DNA of 42,783 nt. Source: Flavobacteriales bacterium. Its GTDB lineage: Bacteria; Bacteroidota; Bacteroidia; Flavobacteriales_D; Crocinitomicaceae. Shown piece by piece: positions 3,693-40,857 of the stretch. A program made the position numbers and the translations under genes. Location of the stretch: contig CANHMH010000007.1 of NCBI GenBank assembly GCA_947461635.1, positions 1 through 42,783 of the forward strand. The letters run 5' to 3'. Positions within the stretch are counted from its first letter, which is position 1; the number at the start of each line of letters is the position of its first letter. Under the pieces are notes generated by a model that made no database searches, was not told the DNA's origin, and saw only the letters and a program-made list of their open reading frames with translations.

Positions 3693-4409
3693 ATGAAATT
3701 AGATATTCTAGCTTTTGCTGCCCATCCCGATGATGTTGAATTATCCGCTTCTGGTACCTTGTTGCATTATGCATCACAAGGGAAGAAAATCGGAATCATT
3801 GATTTAACCGAAGGTGAATTGGGAACACGTGGATCAGTTGCTGATCGCTATGCTGAATCTGCTGCTGCTGGAAAACTCATGGGCTTAACTGTTCGCAAAA
3901 ACTTGAACATGGGCGATGGATTCTTCGAAATCAATGAAGAAAACAAGCGTAAAATCATTGAACAAATTCGCATCCATCAACCAGAAATCGTTTTGGCAAA
4001 TTGTTTGAGCGATCGACATCCGGACCATGGTCGTGGGGGAAAATTAGTTTCCGATGCCTGTTTTTTAGCTGGACTGCGTAAAATTGAAACCGTTGTTGAA
4101 GGAGTCGCGTTGACACCTCATCGGCCAAGATTGGTATTACATTATATTCAGGACCATTATGTGCATCCTGACATTGTGATGGATGTAACGGCGTTCATGG
4201 AAGAAAAAATCGAAGTGATTAAAGCGTTCCGATCACAGTTTTTCGATCCAGCTTCTACCGAACCAACGACGCCAATTTCTGGTGAAGAATTCTTTCAATT
4301 CATAAAAGGAAGAATGATGCAATATGGACGTCCAATTGGTGTTGAATATGCCGAAGGATTCACTGTTACACGCATTCTTGGGACGAAAGATATTTTTGGT
4401 TTAGTTTGA
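3693..4409 (+). CDS. bshB1: Bacillithiol biosynthesis deacetylase BshB1
   Basis: A 238-aa PIG-L/LmbE-family zinc deacetylase. In bacillithiol synthesis it removes the acetyl group from GlcNAc-malate to give GlcN-malate, the substrate for cysteine addition by BshC. The zinc motif AHPDDVE (residues 10-16) and the second motif DRHPDHGRG are visible. The stretch LTEGELGTRGS after the first motif is characteristic of BshB1 rather than of other LmbE proteins. ATG 3693 is preceded by TAGTTTCG (3666-3673), a 7/8 match to the -7 box. The stop codon is 3 nt upstream of word array A. Confidence 0.93.
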   Translation: MKLDILAFAAHPDDVELSASGTLLHYASQGKKIGIIDLTEGELGTRGSVADRYAESAAAGKLMGLTVRKNLNMGDGFFEINEENKRKIIEQIRIHQPEIVLANCLSDRHPDHGRGGKLVSDACFLAGLRKIETVVEGVALTPHRPRLVLHYIQDHYVHPDIVMDVTAFMEEKIEVIKAFRSQFFDPASTEPTTPISGEEFFQFIKGRMMQYGRPIGVEYAEGFTVTRILGTKDIFGLV

Positions 4410-4412
4410 TTT

Positions 4413-4580
4413 TAATGTGCTAGTTGCTTAATGTGCTAGTTGCTCAGTCTGCTAATGTGCTAGTTACTTAATGTGCTAATGTGTTAGTGTGAGTAAGCTA
4501 TCGGAGCGTGTCATTAGCAAATAAGTCCATTGGCAAATTAGCACATTAATGCATTAGCAAATTAGCACATTAGTTCATTA
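4413..4580. repeat. Octamer word array A with inverted arms
   Basis: The left arm (4413-4492) reads as ten consecutive 8-nt words, including TAATGTGC, TAGTTGCT, CAGTCTGC, TAGTTACT and TAATGTGT, with no register slip. A 19-nt non-word core (4493-4511, containing CTATCGGAGCG) follows. The right arm (4512-4580) is the reverse complement: read on the minus strand it gives TAATGAAC, TAATGTGC, TAATTTGC, TAATGCAT, CAATGGAC and so on. The arms could pair into a long imperfect hairpin. The array fills the gap between the bshB1 stop codon and the -7 box of the next gene. Confidence 0.9.
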
Positions 4581-5084: not shown

Positions 5085-7283
5085 ATGAGATATTATTTTT
5101 TAGGATTCCTCCTCATCTGGATGACTTCCAAAACCAATGCACAAATCAAAGGAGTAGTTCTACGACAAGACTCCACAAAAACTAGTCCCATTGAAAATGC
5201 AAAGATTCGTCTTTCCCATTCAAATCAAGGGGTATTTACAAACAAGGATGGACGATTTGAAATAGTTCTTCCCAAACTTTTACCGGACACCCTGATCATC
5301 AGCGCAATGGGTTACTTATCAGACTCCATTGTGGTGACAAAAAATGATCGCTTCGTCGCGTTCACTATTTTACTCATTCCGGTTTCGACAAAAACAGAAA
5401 TTGTCTATCAACTCCGGAAAAATTCCCATCAGATCTCCAAAATGGAAACATTGCACGTGGAAGAAATTGGATCAGGAGAATTGCGAAAAGCAGCTTGCTG
5501 CAATTTATCAGAGTCTTTTGAAACAAATGCTTCCGTAGATGTAAACATTACCGACGCTGTTTCGGGCGCTAAGAAAATTCAACTAATGGGACTTGATGGC
5601 GTATATACTCAAATTCAGATGGAAAACATTCCATACTTGCGTGGACTCGAAAGCTCCTATGGGCTTCAATCCATTCCTGGAACCTGGATCGAATCCATTC
5701 AAATCACAAAAGGAACGGGAAACGTGGTGAATGGCTATGAGTCCATGGCGGGATTAGTGAATTTAGAAATAAAGAAACCAAATGAGATGGAGAAATTCTA
5801 TTTTAACGCATACCAAAATCGTTTTGGCCGATCTGAAATGAATGTGAATGCGGGAACCAAAATCAATCAAAAATGGAGCACAGGAATCCTGGGGCACGCT
5901 TCATCAATGTTTGGGAACATCGATCATAATAAAGATGGATTCCGAGATATACCAATGGGTGATAATCTTGCTTTTATGAATCGTTGGGCTTATCAAGGTA
6001 AGAAAATGGAAGCGCAATTTGGTTTCAATGTATACCAAGATCGCAAAACAGGTGGACAGACAAGCTACTTTCGAGATAATCCAAACGGTTATGGAGTGGT
6101 GATGAATTCACGTCATGCAGATCTTTACGCCAAAACGGGGTTCTTCAGCAAAAAACCTTTGCGCTCATTTGGTGTCGTATACAACCTGAAATACCAATTA
6201 ATAAACGGTGCATTTGGAATTCGCGATTTTCAGGGTGAAGAAAAACGCGCCTATATCAATGCGATTTACGACGATATAATTGCAACAAGTGATCATAAGG
6301 TTAAATTTGGTGCGAGTTTCGTTGGTCTACAAATCCGTCAGCAAGTACAAAATTTGGATCAACTTCGAACAGAAATCGTCCCGGGGATTTTCGGGGAATA
6401 TACCTATACGGGTTCTCGATTAATCACAGTATTAGGAGCGCGTTACGATCAACACTTCACCTATGGCGGACAATTCTCACCTCGAATTCATGCGAAATAT
6501 GCCTTAACCCAGCGAGCAGATCTGCGCGTTACGGCGGGAAAAGGTTGGCGTGTACCAAACTACATGATTGACAATATTTCACTTTTAGCAAATTCCAAAA
6601 CCTGGATTGCTCCTTCGGAAATCAAATCAGAAATATCATGGAATGCTGGAATTTCTTTAGTGAAAGATTTTATCGTTCTCGAAAAAAATGGGAATATCAG
6701 CTTGGACTTCTATCATACACTTTTTCAAAATCAGTTGATTGTTGATCGTGATGTTGCATTGGATGCGATTGTCTTTCAAAATCTTGCAAACTCATCTTAC
6801 TCAAATAGTTTTCAGGTAGAAATGTCGTATTCACCCATTAAGAACTTCGAACTTCGATTTGCCTACAAACATTTAGATGTGAAGGCATTGTACGATGGTG
6901 TAATGCGTCAACAGGTGATGATTCCGAAGAACCGTGGATTCGTTAATCTCGCCTACCGAACGCGAAATAAACGCTGGGAATTCGATGCTACATGTACGAT
7001 TTACGGATCGGGACGTTTACCTGTCATTCTTCAAGCGTCGGGTCTAGAACAGCATGATGAACAAAGTTCAGTGTATCCTATGGTCAACTCACAAATTACG
7101 CATATTTACAAAAAATGGAATTTTTACCTTGGTGGAGAAAATTTAGCGAACTTTAGACAATTGAATCCGATTATTGATGCCCATAATCCTTTTGGAAGTT
7201 CTTTCGATGCAAATAGAGTTTGGGGTCCGATAATGGGTTGGAATGTTTATATGGGAGTTCGATATGCGATTAAACAAAAATAG
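5085..7283 (+). CDS. TonB-dependent outer-membrane receptor with carboxypeptidase-like N-terminal domain
   Basis: 732 aa. A signal peptide (about 1-19, ending TNAQ) is followed by a CarboxypepD_reg-like beta-sandwich (about 21-95), a plug domain (about 115-235) and a 22-strand-type barrel to the C terminus. The plug carries AACCNLSESFETN (Cys138-Cys139), a signature of a Bacteroidota receptor subfamily often found with HMA and HYC_CC_PP proteins. The probable role is uptake of a metal or metal chelate across the outer membrane, powered by TonB; copper is suggested by context only. The stop TAG is 6 nt upstream of array B. Confidence 0.88.
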   Translation: MRYYFLGFLLIWMTSKTNAQIKGVVLRQDSTKTSPIENAKIRLSHSNQGVFTNKDGRFEIVLPKLLPDTLIISAMGYLSDSIVVTKNDRFVAFTILLIPVSTKTEIVYQLRKNSHQISKMETLHVEEIGSGELRKAACCNLSESFETNASVDVNITDAVSGAKKIQLMGLDGVYTQIQMENIPYLRGLESSYGLQSIPGTWIESIQITKGTGNVVNGYESMAGLVNLEIKKPNEMEKFYFNAYQNRFGRSEMNVNAGTKINQKWSTGILGHASSMFGNIDHNKDGFRDIPMGDNLAFMNRWAYQGKKMEAQFGFNVYQDRKTGGQTSYFRDNPNGYGVVMNSRHADLYAKTGFFSKKPLRSFGVVYNLKYQLINGAFGIRDFQGEEKRAYINAIYDDIIATSDHKVKFGASFVGLQIRQQVQNLDQLRTEIVPGIFGEYTYTGSRLITVLGARYDQHFTYGGQFSPRIHAKYALTQRADLRVTAGKGWRVPNYMIDNISLLANSKTWIAPSEIKSEISWNAGISLVKDFIVLEKNGNISLDFYHTLFQNQLIVDRDVALDAIVFQNLANSSYSNSFQVEMSYSPIKNFELRFAYKHLDVKALYDGVMRQQVMIPKNRGFVNLAYRTRNKRWEFDATCTIYGSGRLPVILQASGLEQHDEQSSVYPMVNSQITHIYKKWNFYLGGENLANFRQLNPIIDAHNPFGSSFDANRVWGPIMGWNVYMGVRYAIKQK

Positions 7284-7289
7284 TTGGGT

Positions 7290-7511
7290 TAATGTGCTAA
7301 TGTGCTAATGGGTTAATGTGCTAATGGACCAATGTGTTAATTAACCAATGTGCTAATGTGCTAGTTACTTAATGTGCTATTGTGCCAATGGACTAATTTG
7401 CTAATGTGCTAATGGACTAATGTGCTAATGTGCTAGTTACTTAATGTGCTATTGTGCTAATGTGCTAATGTGCTAATGGACCAATGTGTTAATTAACCAA
7501 TGTGCTAATTT
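7290..7511 (+). repeat. Octamer word array B, single orientation, 27 words without an indel
   Basis: The 222 nt parse as 27 consecutive 8-nt words plus TAATTT. TAATGTGC alternates with TAATGGGT, TAATGGAC, CAATGTGT, TAATTAAC, TAGTTACT, TATTGTGC and TAATTTGC. Two multi-word phrases recur exactly: a 32-nt phrase at 7322-7353 and 7474-7505, and another at 7354-7385 and 7426-7457. No inverted arm is visible. The 7284-7556 gap otherwise holds only about 45 nt before the HMA gene. Confidence 0.92.
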
Positions 7512-7556
7512 GGAGGGGAGATAGTGAGAAATGAATACTTTTTAAATTTATATAGG

Positions 7557-7889
7557 ATGAAAACAATAACCTTAAGTCTATTCTTTGTGCTATTTAGCAC
7601 TATTAGTTTTGGGCAAAAATCAATGACGAGTCAGATTCAGACGAATGCGCAATGTGGTGATTGTAAGGAACGAATCGAAGGGAAATTAAACTATACAAAA
7701 GGAATCAAATTTGCAGAACTCGATGACCAGACGAAAATTGTTACTGTTAAATACGACCCGAGTAAAATTGAACTTCTGACGATCAAGCAAACAATAGCGA
7801 AAATTGGTTATGATGCCGACGACGTAAAAGCGGATAAAGAAGACGTGGAGAAATTACCGAAGTGTTGTCAGCCGAATGGACATGAATAA
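7557..7889 (+). CDS. Exported heavy-metal-associated (HMA) domain protein
   Basis: 110 aa from ATG 7557: a signal peptide ending ISFGQ, then one ferredoxin-like HMA domain with the metal motif QCGDC (Cys33, Cys36), and a C-terminal KCCQPNGH that could add ligands. Such proteins bind Cu(I) or similar ions; the signal peptide places this one in the periplasm. The ORF-track GTG at 7524 adds eleven residues in front of an ideal signal peptide and is less likely. It probably works with the upstream TonB receptor and HYC_CC_PP protein. Its stop codon TAA is the first three bases of array C. Confidence 0.85.
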   Translation: MKTITLSLFFVLFSTISFGQKSMTSQIQTNAQCGDCKERIEGKLNYTKGIKFAELDDQTKIVTVKYDPSKIELLTIKQTIAKIGYDADDVKADKEDVEKLPKCCQPNGHE

Positions 7890-8078
7890 TGTGCTAATGT
7901 GCTAATTAACCAATGTGCTAATTACCTAATGTGCTAATTACCTAATGTGCTAGTTGTTCAATGTGCTAGTTGTCTAATTTGCCAGATAGTCAATGTGCTG
8001 ATTGTTTTATTACGTAGCTGAAGGCCATTAGCAAATTAGTCCATTGTCACATTAATCCATTAGCTCATTACTACATTA
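7887..8078. repeat. Octamer word array C with inverted arms
   Basis: The left arm (7887-8014) reads as sixteen 8-nt words (TAATGTGC, TAATTAAC, CAATGTGC, TAATTACC, TAGTTGTT, CAGATAGT and others). A 10-nt core TAGCTGAAGG (8015-8024) follows. The right arm (8025-8078) on the minus strand reads TAATGTAG, TAATGAGC, TAATGGAT, TAATGTGA, CAATGGAC and TAATTTGC. The first word supplies the TAA stop of the HMA gene. The last word ends 4 nt before the purF -7 box. Confidence 0.9.
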
Positions 8079-8082
8079 TAAC

Positions 8083-8090
8083 TATCTTTG
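8083..8090 (+). promoter_or_regulatory. -7 box (TATCTTTG) of purF
   Basis: A perfect TAnnTTTG match 20 nt upstream of the purF ATG. No TTG is present at the -33 distance; the area is made of array C words (CATTAGC). Confidence 0.6.
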
Positions 8091-8110
8091 TCGCAAATAT
8101 ACAAAAGACC

Positions 8111-10012
8111 ATGAGTGATCCGATAAAACATGAGTGTGGAATAGCTCTTTTAAGGCTAAAAAAACCTTTGGAATATTATTTGGAAAAGTACGGGACAGCT
8201 CTGTACGGCATTAATAAAATGCACCTACTCATGGAAAAACAACACAATCGTGGACAAGATGGTGCTGGAATCGCGAACATTAAGTTCGATATGGAACCAG
8301 GTCAGCGGTACATTTCAAGAACTCGGTCAATTAAAAAGAATCCAACACAAGATATTTTTGATCAAATAAATGGGAAATTCCAACAAATTCAACAAGAAAA
8401 CCCTGATCATTTAAAAGATGTTAATTACCTAAAACAAAATGCAGGTTTCACCGGAGAATTGTTTTTAGGACACCTTCGTTATGGAACTTTTGGAAGGAAT
8501 TCAATTGAAAGTTGCCATCCATTTTTACGTCAAAACAACTGGATTACTCGCAACTTAGTTGTGGCTGGAAACTTCAATTTAACAAACGTCGACGAGTTGT
8601 TTCAAAACTTGGTCAACTTAGGTCAACATCCGAAAGAAAAAAGTGACACAGTAACGGTTTTAGAAAAAATAGGACATTTCCTTGATGTAGAGAATGAAGA
8701 CTTATATGCTCATTACAAATCACTTGGCTATTCTAAAGATCAAATATATGCTCGCATCGCGAAAGAAGTTAATTTGGTTAAGATCTTGAAAAAAGCATCC
8801 GAAGTTTGGGATGGTGGATATGCCATGGCAGGGCTACTTGGTCATGGTGACGCATTTGTCTTACGAGATCCAAATGGCATTCGTCCGGCATTTTGGTATG
8901 AAGATGATGAAATTTGTGTTGTTGCATCTGAACGACCAGTGATTCAAACTGCCTTCAACTTAACCAGTGATCAAATCCATGAACTTCAACCGGGACACGC
9001 ATTAATCGTGCGCAAAAACGGTGAAGTAAAAGAAGAGATGATTAACGCTCCTAGAGAGATTAAAAAATGTTCTTTTGAACGCATCTATTTCTCCCGCGGA
9101 TCAGATACTGACATTTACAAAGAACGAAAAGCTTTAGGAAGACTAATCGTTGATCAAGTACTAAGGACGGTTAATCACGATTTCGACAATAGTGTATTTT
9201 CATTCATTCCAAATACAGCGGAAGTTTCCTTTTACGGATTGATCAAAGGATTGGAAGAGAATTTGAATCAACAAAAAATCAAGCAAATTCAATCGCTTGG
9301 AAAAGATGCGAGTACAGAACAGCTAGCAGAAATCATCAACCGACGTGCACGTATCGAAAAGATTGCAATTAAGGATGCCAAGTTGCGTACCTTCATCACA
9401 CAAGATGACTCACGTGACGATCTTGTTGCGCATGTATATGACATCACTTATGGAAGTGTGCGTCCAGGAACAGATAACCTCATCGTAATTGATGACAGTA
9501 TCGTACGTGGAACAACTTTAAAACAAAGTATCTTACGAATTCTTGATCGTTTGTCACCGAAGAAAATCGTTGTTGTTTCGTCTGCACCGCAGATTCGTTA
9601 CCCGGATTGTTACGGAATCGACATGGCGAAAATGGGTGATTTCATCGCATTCGAAGCCGCTATTCAATTGTTACGTGACCGAAAAATGGAACGTGTAATA
9701 AAAGAAGTATACGAAAAATGCCTTGAACAAGTAAACCTTCCGAAGGAACAGGTTCGAAATTTCGTTAAAGAAATCTATGCGCCATTTAGCGACGAAGAAA
9801 TCTCAGCTAAAATCGCTGAATTATTGACTCCTCCTACAATTAAAGCAGAGGTGGAAATCGTATTTCAAACAGTAGAAAACTTACATATCGCTTGTCCAAA
9901 TCACCTTGGAGATTGGTACTTCACAGGAGATTATCCGACACCTGGTGGAAACAAAGTAGTGAATAAAGCATTTATCAATTGGGTGGAGAAAAGGAATGAG
10001 CGGGCATATTAA
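8111..10012 (+). CDS. purF: Amidophosphoribosyltransferase, long Bacteroidota form
   Basis: 633 aa, longer than the roughly 470-500 aa of classical PurF. The N-terminal Ntn-hydrolase glutaminase domain has its probable nucleophile at Cys9 in HECGIALL, so an eight-residue propeptide would have to be removed. The NRGQDGAG and HLRYGT motifs of the glutaminase follow. The PRPP-binding loop VIDDSIVRGTT lies near residues 457-470. A C-terminal extension of about 100 residues follows, ending in the GDWYFTGDYPTPGG region found in Bacteroidota homologues. The enzyme makes 5-phosphoribosylamine, the first committed step of purine synthesis. It has its own promoter; its stop TAA is part of array D. Confidence 0.9.
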   Translation: MSDPIKHECGIALLRLKKPLEYYLEKYGTALYGINKMHLLMEKQHNRGQDGAGIANIKFDMEPGQRYISRTRSIKKNPTQDIFDQINGKFQQIQQENPDHLKDVNYLKQNAGFTGELFLGHLRYGTFGRNSIESCHPFLRQNNWITRNLVVAGNFNLTNVDELFQNLVNLGQHPKEKSDTVTVLEKIGHFLDVENEDLYAHYKSLGYSKDQIYARIAKEVNLVKILKKASEVWDGGYAMAGLLGHGDAFVLRDPNGIRPAFWYEDDEICVVASERPVIQTAFNLTSDQIHELQPGHALIVRKNGEVKEEMINAPREIKKCSFERIYFSRGSDTDIYKERKALGRLIVDQVLRTVNHDFDNSVFSFIPNTAEVSFYGLIKGLEENLNQQKIKQIQSLGKDASTEQLAEIINRRARIEKIAIKDAKLRTFITQDDSRDDLVAHVYDITYGSVRPGTDNLIVIDDSIVRGTTLKQSILRILDRLSPKKIVVVSSAPQIRYPDCYGIDMAKMGDFIAFEAAIQLLRDRKMERVIKEVYEKCLEQVNLPKEQVRNFVKEIYAPFSDEEISAKIAELLTPPTIKAEVEIVFQTVENLHIACPNHLGDWYFTGDYPTPGGNKVVNKAFINWVEKRNERAY

Positions 10013-10090
10013 TGTGCTAATGATCTAATGTGCTAATGATTTAAAGTGCTAATGTGCTAATGATTCAATGTGCTGATGATTTAATGTGCT

Positions 10091-10104
10091 TCCGCTGCGG
10101 CGGA
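10091..10104 (+). other. Small GC-rich hairpin next to the left arm of element D
   Basis: TCCGC-TGCG-GCGGA, a perfect 5-bp stem directly after the last left-arm word, in otherwise AT-rich DNA. It is followed by GTTTTGATTTG rather than a clean T-run, so a terminator role is uncertain. Confidence 0.45.
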
Positions 10105-10173
10105 GTTTTGATTTGTTTTTATGATTTTGGGAGCTTGGGAGAATAAAATTCAACTTCTTGCGTTAAATGATTC

Positions 10174-10524
10174 ATGACTGATTCTAAGAACCCATTACTC
10201 ACTAAATCATTTGACTTTGCGCTACTAATTGTGTCGTTTTGTCAAGAGTTACAATCACAAAGAAGTTACGTTATTGCGCATCAACTGTTGAAATCAGGTA
10301 CTTCTGTTGGAGCAAATATTCGAGAAGCTCAGCATGCAGAGTCTAGAGCGGATTTCATTCACAAATTGAAAATTGCCTCAAAAGAATGCGAAGAAACAAC
10401 CTATTGGCTCGAAATCTGTCAAGCAAGTTATCCCATGAATTGTGATGTACTCATTAACGAATCGCTACAAATCGGCAAACTACTCAGTCGCATCATCTCC
10501 ACTGCAAAACGAAATAGATTCTAA
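10174..10524 (+). CDS. Four-helix-bundle protein, S23/IVP (Avd-like) family
   Basis: 116 aa, predominantly helical with four predicted amphipathic helices. The hallmark of the family is visible in LLKSGTSVGANIREAQHAES followed by FIHKLKIASKECEETTYWLEI. Relatives are encoded in intervening sequences of some 23S rRNA genes, and Avd of diversity-generating retroelements has the same fold; they are basic oligomeric proteins thought to bind nucleic acid. No reverse transcriptase or 23S fragment is seen here. The gene is enclosed by octamer arms with zero distance between its stop codon and the right arm. A promoter was not identified. Family call is firm; function unknown. Confidence 0.88.
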   Translation: MTDSKNPLLTKSFDFALLIVSFCQELQSQRSYVIAHQLLKSGTSVGANIREAQHAESRADFIHKLKIASKECEETTYWLEICQASYPMNCDVLINESLQIGKLLSRIISTAKRNRF

Positions 10525-10597
10525 ACTAATTAGCATATTACTCCATTAGCACCTTAGCACATTACTCCATAATCCCTACTTTTACAAAAAATTAAAT

Positions 10598-11800
10598 TTG
10601 TCACTGATCTACTCCTTTTTTATTCAATGCTATGGCTTGTTGATTCATGTAGCTTCACGGTTCAATCCGAAAGCGAAGGCCTGGATAGAAGGACGTCAGC
10701 TATGGCAAGAGAAACTTCGGAAACAAATCCCAAAGGAACGTAAGGTGTTGTGGTTTCATTGTGCTTCACTGGGCGAGTTCGACCAAGGATTGCCTCTGAT
10801 GAAGTCTATGAAGGAAGCTGAACCTAGTTTGTTCTTGTTAGTCAGTTTCTTTTCTCCATCGGGAATGGAACATTACGAGAAACGCGAAAAAATCGTTGAT
10901 GCTGCTTGCTACCTTCCGCTTGACACACTCCAGAATGCACGGACGTTTGTCAAAATAGTCCAACCACAAAAAGCGGTTTTCGTGAAATATGAATTCTGGC
11001 CAAATTTCCTTCGAGCCTTGGATGAAAAACACATCGAAACGGATGCTGTATCAGCAATTTTTCGTCCTTCGCAACTATACTTTCGTTGGTATGGAGGCTT
11101 TTTCCGAAGAGCATTAAAGCGCATTCATCATTTTTACGTGCAAAACGAAGAAAGTGCGGCACTTTTGAAATCTATTGGAATTCAGCAAATTACTATCTCA
11201 GGTGATATGCGCTACAAACGCGTTGTTCAAGCGAAGGAAATAGCGATGCAAACCTCAAATGAACTTCTAGCCTCATTTACCTCAGGTTCTACTACCCTGA
11301 TCCTCGGAAGTTCTTGGCCAAAAGAAGAAGGAATTGTACGCGATGCTCTTTTACATTTAGGAGAAATAAAGTTAATCATTGCACCGCACGATGTGAGTGA
11401 ACAGCATGTTGCATCCATTCAAGCAATGTTTCCTTCTGCATTACGCTATACAAAGTTAGAAATCGATCGTAAGGAAAAGCAACTTTTGAATGCTCAAATT
11501 CTGATCATCGATTGCATTGGACAATTAAGCGCTGCATACCGTTATGGAACAATTGCCTTTATCGGTGGAGGATTTACGGGTAGTCTGCATAATATTCTAG
11601 AACCAGCCGTTTACGGACTTCCACTCCTGTTTGGTCCAAAACACAGTAAATTCCCAGAATCAGATTTATTTCTTCAAAAAGGCTTCGCACTCGAGGTTAA
11701 CAATCATACAGATTTCACCGAAGGGTTCAACTTTCTACTTTCTAAAGTTAATTCACTGCGTACAGAAATGGAATCGTTTGTTGAGAGTCAAATTGGTTAA
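10598..11800 (+). CDS. waaA: 3-deoxy-D-manno-octulosonic acid (Kdo) transferase
   Basis: A 400-aa GT30 glycosyltransferase that adds Kdo to lipid A precursors at the inner membrane, consistent with a Gram-negative host. Visible landmarks are an N-terminal hydrophobic anchor (YSFFIQCYGLLIHVA), HCASLGEFDQG, KYEFWPNF, and the C-terminal GGGFTGSLHNILEPAVYG and FGPKHSKFPE. No ATG is available at the N terminus. TTG 10598 gives the expected family start, but it overlaps a TAAATTTG sequence. TACTTTTA (10577-10584, 7/8 match) is the better -7 candidate and leaves the TTG in the transcript. The stop TAA is the first three bases of array E. Confidence 0.9.
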   Translation: MSLIYSFFIQCYGLLIHVASRFNPKAKAWIEGRQLWQEKLRKQIPKERKVLWFHCASLGEFDQGLPLMKSMKEAEPSLFLLVSFFSPSGMEHYEKREKIVDAACYLPLDTLQNARTFVKIVQPQKAVFVKYEFWPNFLRALDEKHIETDAVSAIFRPSQLYFRWYGGFFRRALKRIHHFYVQNEESAALLKSIGIQQITISGDMRYKRVVQAKEIAMQTSNELLASFTSGSTTLILGSSWPKEEGIVRDALLHLGEIKLIIAPHDVSEQHVASIQAMFPSALRYTKLEIDRKEKQLLNAQILIIDCIGQLSAAYRYGTIAFIGGGFTGSLHNILEPAVYGLPLLFGPKHSKFPESDLFLQKGFALEVNNHTDFTEGFNFLLSKVNSLRTEMESFVESQIG

Positions 11801-12013
11801 TGTGCTAATGGACTAATGTGCTAATGTGTTAGTTAGTTAGTTAGTTAATTTGCTAATGTGCTAGTTGCTTAATTTGCTAATGGACTAATTTGCTTGTTGA
11901 TTGATGTTCTAGATACTTTCAGGCGCAGTGGAAATCCAATGGCACATTAGCACATCGAATCATTAGCACATTGAATCATTAGCACATTGAATCATTAGCA
12001 CATTAGCACATTA
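11798..12013. repeat. Octamer word array E with inverted arms between convergent genes
   Basis: The left arm (11798-11917) reads as fifteen 8-nt words (TAATGTGC, TAATGGAC, TAGTTAGT twice, TAATTTGC and others). The core is 11918-11935 (contains AGGCGCAGTG). The right arm (11936-12013) on the minus strand is TAATGTGC twice, then TAATGATT-CAATGTGC alternating, one copy as CGATGTGC. The outermost words supply the TAA stop of waaA on the left and the TAA stop of the beta-barrel gene on the right. As a long inverted repeat between convergent genes it may act as a bidirectional terminator. Confidence 0.9.
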
Positions 12014-15271: not shown

Positions 15272-16065
15272 TATTTTGTAAGGGTGATAAGTGTGAACAT
15301 TGAAAGGAAAATAGAAACAAACGTAGTTCCTAATTGCGTGTAGGTCTGAAAATTAGTGCCTTGGAAATTCGCGGAGAAATTTGGCTCTACGTAAATCACA
15401 TCGTTTTGACAAATGTAAAATGCCGGCGAGTTATAGATGCTTTTATTTGTTAAATCGAGACGATATTCGATGCGTTGACCATTCTGTTCACGAATGAGTA
15501 AAACATTATTTCGAAGTCCTGTTATTTGTAGATCGCCAGCTTTGCCAATTGCTTCTAGGATTGTCATTCGTTCAGTGGAAACCATGTGAATACCTGGAGA
15601 CTTGACTTGACCAAGTACCGTATACTTAAAGTTTTTAATCTCAATATTAACAACTGGATTATCAACATATTGTGAAAGTTGCTCCTGTAAATACTTTACA
15701 GCGTCCAAACGTGTTTTTCCTGCCAATTGCACGAATCCTAAAACGGGGAAATTAATATTCCCATTAATGTCAATCAAATAGGTAATTCCTGTTAGCAATT
15801 GTAAATTTTGACCATTGTTATTTGAACTACTTGTAGAATAAAATTGAAAAGGCGCCAATGCCTCTTGATCTGCACCTCCAACAAGAATACTTAATTGATC
15901 GTCAACGCGTAAAATGGGTGAATAGGTATTTTTCACTTGTTGAATCGTATCCGTATTTGGATTGTGTAAGTAAACCAATCGTTCACGAACCTTACAAGAT
16001 GTAAAGCCAACTAGTATAAAAAGAATACCTGCAAATAACTTTGCTAGTATAGTGATGTGTTTCAT
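15271..16065 (-). CDS. Wza-like polysaccharide export lipoprotein
   Basis: 264 aa with a lipoprotein signal (GFTSC, acylated Cys24). The polysaccharide-export (Poly_export) domain covers about residues 45-150, followed by a SLBB-type segment (VLGQVKSPGIHMV). The C terminus (FVSIFLSMFTLITL) is hydrophobic and may span the outer membrane. It should form the outer-membrane export channel partnered with the Wzc-like kinase encoded next. It shares one base with that gene (TAATG). An 87-nt gap to the WecA-like gene contains TAACTTTA, a 7/8 match to the -7 box, so an internal promoter is possible but weakly supported. Confidence 0.9.
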   Translation of the reverse strand: MKHITILAKLFAGILFILVGFTSCKVRERLVYLHNPNTDTIQQVKNTYSPILRVDDQLSILVGGADQEALAPFQFYSTSSSNNNGQNLQLLTGITYLIDINGNINFPVLGFVQLAGKTRLDAVKYLQEQLSQYVDNPVVNIEIKNFKYTVLGQVKSPGIHMVSTERMTILEAIGKAGDLQITGLRNNVLLIREQNGQRIEYRLDLTNKSIYNSPAFYICQNDVIYVEPNFSANFQGTNFQTYTQLGTTFVSIFLSMFTLITLTK

Positions 16066-23071: not shown

Positions 23072-23205
23072 TAATGGGCTAATTGTTAATGTGCTAATGG
23101 TTTAATTTGCCAATTTGCTAATTGTTAATGTGCTAATGGTTTAATTTGCTAATGTGCTAATTAGTTACTGCGCTAATGATGCTATTTGATAATTTGCTAA
23201 TGGAT
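23072..23205. repeat. Octamer word array F, single orientation, upstream of the carbamoyltransferase
   Basis: The plus strand reads TAATGGGC, TAATTGT (7 nt), TAATGTGC, TAATGGTT, TAATTTGC, CAATTTGC, TAATTGT (7 nt), TAATGTGC, TAATGGTT, TAATTTGC and so on, 17 words with two 7-nt slips at the same word. A 31-nt phrase is repeated exactly (23080-23110 and 23119-23149). No inverted arm. It starts 2 nt from the carbamoyltransferase ATG and ends 44 nt from the preceding stop codon, the only array lying inside the minus-strand locus. Confidence 0.9.
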
Positions 23206-40310: not shown

Positions 40311-40655
40311 TTACTTTATAGACGAAATCAATTTATTTAACATCATCGTAATTCGATCAGATTTTGTAGAAATCATGTCATACTTTTCCAATGAAATATA
40401 TCCTAATTCTTTTGATAAAAACAAATGATATTTGGTCTCTGCATTTGAAGCTTTTGCGATGTAAAGAAATTGTCTAAATTCCTTATTGTATTGTCTCGCC
40501 TGCCCTTCAATTATATTCGTTGGAACGCTACTAGAACTTCTTTTCATTTGTGAAGTCAAATTGTATTGTTCTTTTTTTGGTAAGTCGTCAGCAACTCTAT
40601 AAACTTCCATTGTCATTTCATGAGCTAACTTCCATACTTGCAACTTGTTTTCCAT
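40311..40655 (-). CDS. Four-helix-bundle protein, S23/IVP (Avd-like) family
   Basis: 114 aa, helical. The family core is clear: YNLTSQMKRSSSSVPTNIIE, then RQYNKEFRQFLYIAKASNAE. It belongs to the larger S23 subgroup (LTSQ.RRS..S.P.NI.EG) and is clearly diverged from the copy at 10174. It lies between two heptamer arrays and between the Wzm-like and Wzt-like genes, in the direction of the operon. Function unknown; nucleic-acid binding is suggested by relatives in rRNA intervening sequences and retroelements. Confidence 0.9.
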   Translation of the reverse strand: MENKLQVWKLAHEMTMEVYRVADDLPKKEQYNLTSQMKRSSSSVPTNIIEGQARQYNKEFRQFLYIAKASNAETKYHLFLSKELGYISLEKYDMISTKSDRITMMLNKLISSIK

Positions 40656-40725
40656 AATGATTGATTTGAGGTTAAAGGATTATGTTGATCTATATCCTTA
40701 ACGCTGTCATGGAGGAAAATATTTC

Positions 40726-40857
40726 GTTGTTCGCTATTAGTTGTTCGTTGTTTGCTTTTCGTTGTTCGTTGTTCGCAGACAGTTTTTTGTTACACTTCGT
40801 GGCCTAGTCGATGGACGATTTACGAACTTCGAGAAACGAACGATGCAAAGCGACATG
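40726..40857. repeat. Heptamer word array with inverted arm, upstream of the second S23-like gene
   Basis: The forward arm (40726-40788) reads in 7-nt register GTTGTTC, GCTATTA, GTTGTTC, GTTGTTT, GCTTTTC, GTTGTTC, GTTGTTC, GCAGACA, GTTTTTT. After about 20 nt the inverted arm (40809-40843) reads CGATGGA, CGATTTA, CGAACTT, CGAGAAA, CGAACGA, the reverse-complement type of the same TTCG words, with one further CGACATG at 40851-40857. The layout copies the octamer arrays with another alphabet and word length. Confidence 0.8.

Follow-up and report, generated by a model that had tools for sequence, protein, structure and literature searches.

Why do arrays of a short tandem repeat begin, at one protein gene after another, on the stop codon of that gene? 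The window considered here, that is, the whole stretch of 42,783 nucleotides that was analysed, comes from an assembly of 2.38 Mb in 217 contigs that is 83% complete. An earlier note had read the first TAA of the outermost TAATGTGC word as the stop codon of the HMA, purF, waaA and beta-barrel genes, and had placed arrays A and B 3 and 6 nt after their stops; the coordinates of the four stops are all exact, and the two spacings are confirmed, from a TGA at 4407-4409 and a TAG at 7281-7283. It is suggested that the arrays are probably the arms of S23p-type (TIGR02436/PF05635) stem-loop elements that enter gene 3' ends, the terminal repeat giving the stop, and they are referred to here as the intergenic form of S23p/IVS-type stem-loop elements. 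An HMM trained over 13 stretches of the genome refined the unit to TAAT[G/T]TG[C/T] with a strict 8-nt period and called no arrays in shuffled sequence, and the window contains 36 copies of TAATGTGC against 1.5 +/- 1.2 expected from shuffles. The features of the window are as follows.

4413-4491, plus strand: array A (TAATGTGC units), forming the left arm of a paired element; starts 3 nt past the stop of the PIG-L gene
4512-4580, minus strand: element A, right, inverted arm; outer end 16 nt ahead of the next ORF, beside a TAACTTTG box
7290-7512, plus strand: array B, single arm, 6 nt past the stop of the TonB-receptor gene; the gap holding it measures 4 nt in G081
7887-7999, plus strand: left arm at the HMA gene; its first TAA (7887-7889) is the HMA stop codon
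8022-8078, minus strand: right, inverted arm, 32 nt ahead of the purF start
10010-10090, plus strand: left arm of the S23p-carrying element; the purF stop is its first TAA (10010-10012), and the C-terminus NERAY* that it closes is conserved
10090-10105, no strand assigned: palindrome TTCCGCTGCGGCGGAG, a second repeat nested at the arm end, which recurs in the arrays of relatives
10174-10524, plus strand: ORF of the S23p / 23S rRNA-IVP family (TIGR02436 and PF05635), 116 aa, between the arms
10524-10570, minus strand: right, inverted arm of the S23p element, upstream of waaA
11798-11911, plus strand: left arm at waaA; its first TAA (11798-11800) is the waaA stop
11940-12013, minus strand: right, inverted arm at the beta-barrel gene; its first TAA (12013-12011, minus strand) is the beta-barrel stop
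23072-23202, plus strand: single array, an exception to the stop rule; its TAAT end lies 2 nt from the start codon of a NodU-like gene (minus strand)

In three of the layouts a short loop separates a plus array from the minus array that comes after it (4413-4580, 7887-8078 and 11798-12013), and in a fourth the plus/minus pair surrounds the S23p gene (10010-10570). The inverted ends of each (4413/4580, 7887/8078, 10010/10570 and 11798/12013) are able to pair as a stem, while the single arms at 7290-7512 and 23072-23202 have no inverted partner. Neither the inverted arms nor the enclosed S23p gene had been described in the earlier note. The predicted RNA fold is far better than that of shuffles at two ORF-less pairs, the one at 11798 (z -5.2) and element A (z -3.4), and no better than shuffles for the S23p-carrying element at 10010-10570 (z -0.85). 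A palindrome, TTCCGCCGCGGCGGAG, lies inside arrays or at their end at 10090-10105 of the window and at loci L049, L006 and L012, and resembles a second small nested repeat. In the relative G002, loops of 240-850 nt (L061, L062) hold other interspersed repeats and short ORFs that resemble nested repeats, with no obvious gene, and an array at L061 7332-7823 (G002:C7) has a 52-nt higher-order repeat, ends at a start codon and is far longer than its orthologues. An Rfam search of the window gave no match, which sets aside a known RNA family as the identity of the arrays.

The distance from array ends to the neighbouring stop codon was tabulated for a census of 20 elements at 13 loci, called by the HMM in stretches of this genome; a phylum-trained repeat model is strand-symmetric and was left out of the orientation counts. 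Of the 15 ends with TAAT facing out towards a gene 3' end, 13 fall within -19 to +6 nt of the stop (the 15 gaps being 3, 6, -3, -3, -3, -3, -3, 6, -3, 3, -3, 471, -19, 308 and -3 nt), and in 8 of the 15 the coincidence is exact, a gap of -3 meaning that the array TAA is the stop. In contrast, none of the six TAAT-in ends facing a stop falls in that range (47, 23, 406, 50, 19 and 87 nt; Fisher p = 5e-4). When each element was moved uniformly inside its own gap in 200,000 simulations, 3.7 were expected within 6 nt of the stop, compared with 11 of 13 seen, a number reached in none of the simulations, and exact abutment was expected 1.4 times and seen 7 times. Moreover, 8 of 9 array-supplied stops are located in unit 1, where one third would be expected for random frames (p = 0.001). 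Given the shuffles and the sliding null, chance placement is rejected as the source of the coincidence between arrays and stops. The same orientation is seen in G015, G002, G036 and G032, where 32 of 43 out ends and 6 of 33 in ends lie at stops, many of these sites being orthologous and thus not independent. Some arrays do not follow the rule. Two clear arrays adjoin start codons, that at 23072 among them, and an array at L006 occupies all of a stop-to-start gap; others lie well away from stops, namely those of L010 and L016, a pair at L014 and, at L007, the left end of the pair.

Arrays are missing from most genomes of the genus, including G081, a close relative with 95% purF identity that shares synteny with the first part of the window and has no repeat match genome-wide. 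Comparison of C-termini with those of G081, made with correctly oriented rows only since some relatives carry the loci on the opposite strand, identified three outcomes: the array begins at the ancestral stop, the stop has moved by one or two codons, or the array encodes both a tail and the stop. The first is seen in purF, beta-barrel, L014 and L017, where the start of the array coincides exactly with the ancestral stop and the last position is kept; for purF this is the stop of NERAY*, the ending shared by G081 and the relatives in the correct orientation. The second is seen in HMA, L012 and L013: in G000 and G015 HMA terminates at the array TAA, which lies one codon beyond the ancestral stop, and the L012 gene has lost its last residues. 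The third is seen in the L015 gene, which ends in RDAQ* in G081 and in RDVNGLID*, RDNNVLVC*, RDGNVLIG* or RDVNGLMC* in four array genomes, each tail being read from the array and each different, and it recurs in waaA of G015 with the array-encoded terminal INVLVT*. The array can therefore supply a stop and a tail, yet it often sits on the old stop.

These comparisons bear on the two alternatives that the earlier note had offered. Survival of an element whose TAA end restores a stop is backed by the array-free orthologues of L015, waaA of G015, HMA and L012. Insertion at TAA/TTAA sites is not backed as stated, given that several host stops are TGA or TAG and that in other Bacteroidota TGA stops occur with TGAT units, and a strict TAA/TTAA target is rejected on the same grounds. 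It is possible that insertion is random and that only copies at gene ends persist, all others breaking genes or promoters. The operon gaps of G081 are only 4-38 nt, the array has stops in all frames, and right ends stop just short of TAnnTTTG boxes, all of which would suit such a process. However, pure survivorship is somewhat unlikely for three reasons: first, exact abutment exceeds the expectation of the sliding test; second, the array-supplied stops are concentrated in unit 1; and third, the ancestral last position is kept in the purF, barrel, L014 and L017 proteins. The exact register of the array on the stop thus suggests that survivorship does not suffice by itself; since the start of the array falls right on the conserved ancestral stop in several genes, rescue has to be supplemented by a degree of precision at gene ends. 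As a separate observation, the outer right ends at 4580 and 8078 of the window and at L095 after purF lie a few nt short of the Bacteroidetes-type TAnnTTTG box of the next gene.

Genes of the S23p/four-helix-bundle type are common in Bacteroidota. The ORF at 10174-10524 matches the S23p family (PF05635/TIGR02436) with E values of 4.4e-22 and 4.5e-27, and 2rld with 6.7e-25. Only one of the TAATGTGC elements of the window carries it, and the gene lies between inverted arms at purF in G000, G015 and G036. The loops of most ORF-less arrays are unrelated, so the evidence for their putative descent from an S23p element is confined to arm sequence and layout. In G081 purF and waaA are convergent and their stops overlap, with the purF end at 15503 and the waaA end at 15500, and in G002 this convergent order is kept with an array in between. 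In G000, G015 and G036 waaA is reversed between inverted arrays (window 10598-11800; L062 3308-4456; L139 15500-16744), which suggests an inversion between the inverted arms. A second S23p gene of the window (40311-40655, minus strand) lies upstream of an ABC-exporter-like gene; a 7-nt repeat of another sequence (CGAACAA / TTCGTTG) lies on each of its flanks, the orientation being the same, with a repeat at 40723-40776.

Among the 61 genomes of the genus there are 48 S23p matches, and many of the loci read are flanked by short-period repeats, commonly in operon gaps. The flanking repeats are mostly other sequences, often inverted, such as GAATGAGG versus TCATTCAC, TAGGCAATAG and GTTGAAA. These other families also supply stops, as in L080 (ARNYK* with TAGGCATAG) and L093 (the repeat-coded tail ELKVEN*), and the repeat starts at the stop in metH-like, sdhA-like and sufB-like gaps, the gene names having been assigned by reading the translations. 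In five genomes (L088, L092, L102, L104, L107) there are S23p genes in the rpsO-pnp gap, and their repeats follow a terminator-like hairpin instead of lying at the stop. Beyond the genus, a scan of the collection with the IVP alignment A2 (A1 being too diverse) gave 80 Bacteroidota S23p loci. Complementarity of the flanks at z > 4 was found at 48 of 79 independently fetched loci and in 6 of 307 control windows. Left arms typically begin at the upstream stop (TAATTTGAAAATG, TAATGTGCTGATT, TGATGTGCTGATT), and stop type tracks unit type, TGA occurring with TGAT and TAA/TAG with TAAT (8/5 versus 4/28, p = 0.0017 without correction for phylogeny, related loci not being independent). Stop proximity by itself is not significant across the phylum (27 of 48 within 8 nt versus 22.7 expected), because the arms usually fill the whole gap.

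The arrays might instead have grown in situ: slippage or unequal exchange would have extended a short seed at the stop, and concerted evolution would have kept stop and unit alike. Array length and unit order do differ between orthologous sites, and the match of stop type to unit type would follow from such growth. An array-free gap of G081 holds the two-unit repeat TTAGCAAGTTAGC, which may be what is left of an array or the seed of one, and because of this motif in one empty gap expansion from a seed retains some likelihood. Growth in place is nonetheless unlikely, given that one unit is common to some 20 unlinked sites, that the arms are inverted pairs, that the association with S23p genes extends across a phylum and that G081 has no array match at all. 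A host function, in which the hairpins would serve in ending transcripts or in ribosome termination and selection would set the stem at the stop, is improbable even with the strong folds at paired sites and the selection on structures right after stop codons described in many bacteria (PMC7518266), since arrays are missing in most genomes of the genus, G081 included, single arms persist without a partner and some arrays adjoin start codons. Selection on post-stop structures may, however, help such elements to persist.

The reading that is preferred, that of S23p-type stem-loop elements entering gene 3' ends, would combine site preference with survivorship. The full form would be an 8-nt direct-repeat array, the S23p ORF and an inverted array, and most copies in this genome would have lost the ORF or one arm. 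Elements would enter gene 3' ends in compact, operon-like DNA. The TonB-HMA gap measures 4 nt in G081 and 274 bp in G000. The outer strand of the array begins T(A/G)AT, and its first or early unit could act as the in-frame stop for a junction at or just before the native stop, after which the native stop and the last codons could be lost. The T(A/G)A in the terminal repeat would make a junction harmless when it falls on the stop or directly ahead of it. After transcription the two arms could pair into a long hairpin from the stop codon, and the element would reside in the mRNA with both neighbours intact, as intervening sequences of rRNA do in 23S rRNA. With regard to a MITE or insertion-sequence derivative, for which a target-site duplication and a fixed terminal inverted repeat would be expected, the arms are inverted, but at the junctions compared with G081 no duplication was visible. 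Neither a transposition event nor within-species polymorphism was seen. Mobility, the insertion chemistry, a preference for gene ends at insertion, the role of the S23p protein and processing of the RNA are inferred from these patterns.

A search of the open-access literature found no paper on these repeats or on intergenic S23p elements, and three known systems were compared. The 23S rRNA IVSs of Leptospira and Coxiella likewise have an S23p-family ORF in the loop of a stem formed from inverted ends. The Coxiella IVS also has strain-variable heptamer tandem repeats directly before the S23p ORF, and its stem is cut by RNase III (PMC4990558). In contrast to IVSs, which are sited in a 23S rRNA helix, all copies examined here adjoin protein genes, being intergenic at their 3' ends; their arms are long 8-nt arrays and most have no ORF. 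Because they lie outside rRNA, the copies are IVS-like and not IVSs. The MIRUs of mycobacteria, which insert at start codons with coupled ORFs (PMC12548453), are similarly short repeated elements at gene borders in operons that preserve host codons, and by analogy are the nearest counterpart for codon-preserving insertion. Unlike a MIRU with its coupled small ORF, inserted at start codons with -4 nt translational coupling, the elements here have a stop-bringing end, 8-nt units, inverted arms and an S23p gene, and their ends lie at stops, with few at starts and those 2 nt away. REP/BIME and other small palindromic repeats likewise form many-copy intergenic hairpins after stop codons, whereas the unit here is a non-palindromic 8-mer array associated with S23p.

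In summary, it is tentatively proposed that phylum-wide S23p hairpin elements of Bacteroidota insert at stop codons, the first unit of the terminal array replacing the host stop, and that they may be the protein-gene counterpart of rRNA intervening sequences, with the S23p protein having a role in their spread. The present analysis places the S23p genes in an element with defined ends at stop codons, array-free sites and ORF-less derivatives, which makes mobility and function testable, and repeat elements are seen to determine how core genes such as purF and waaA end, in C-terminus and in stop codon.
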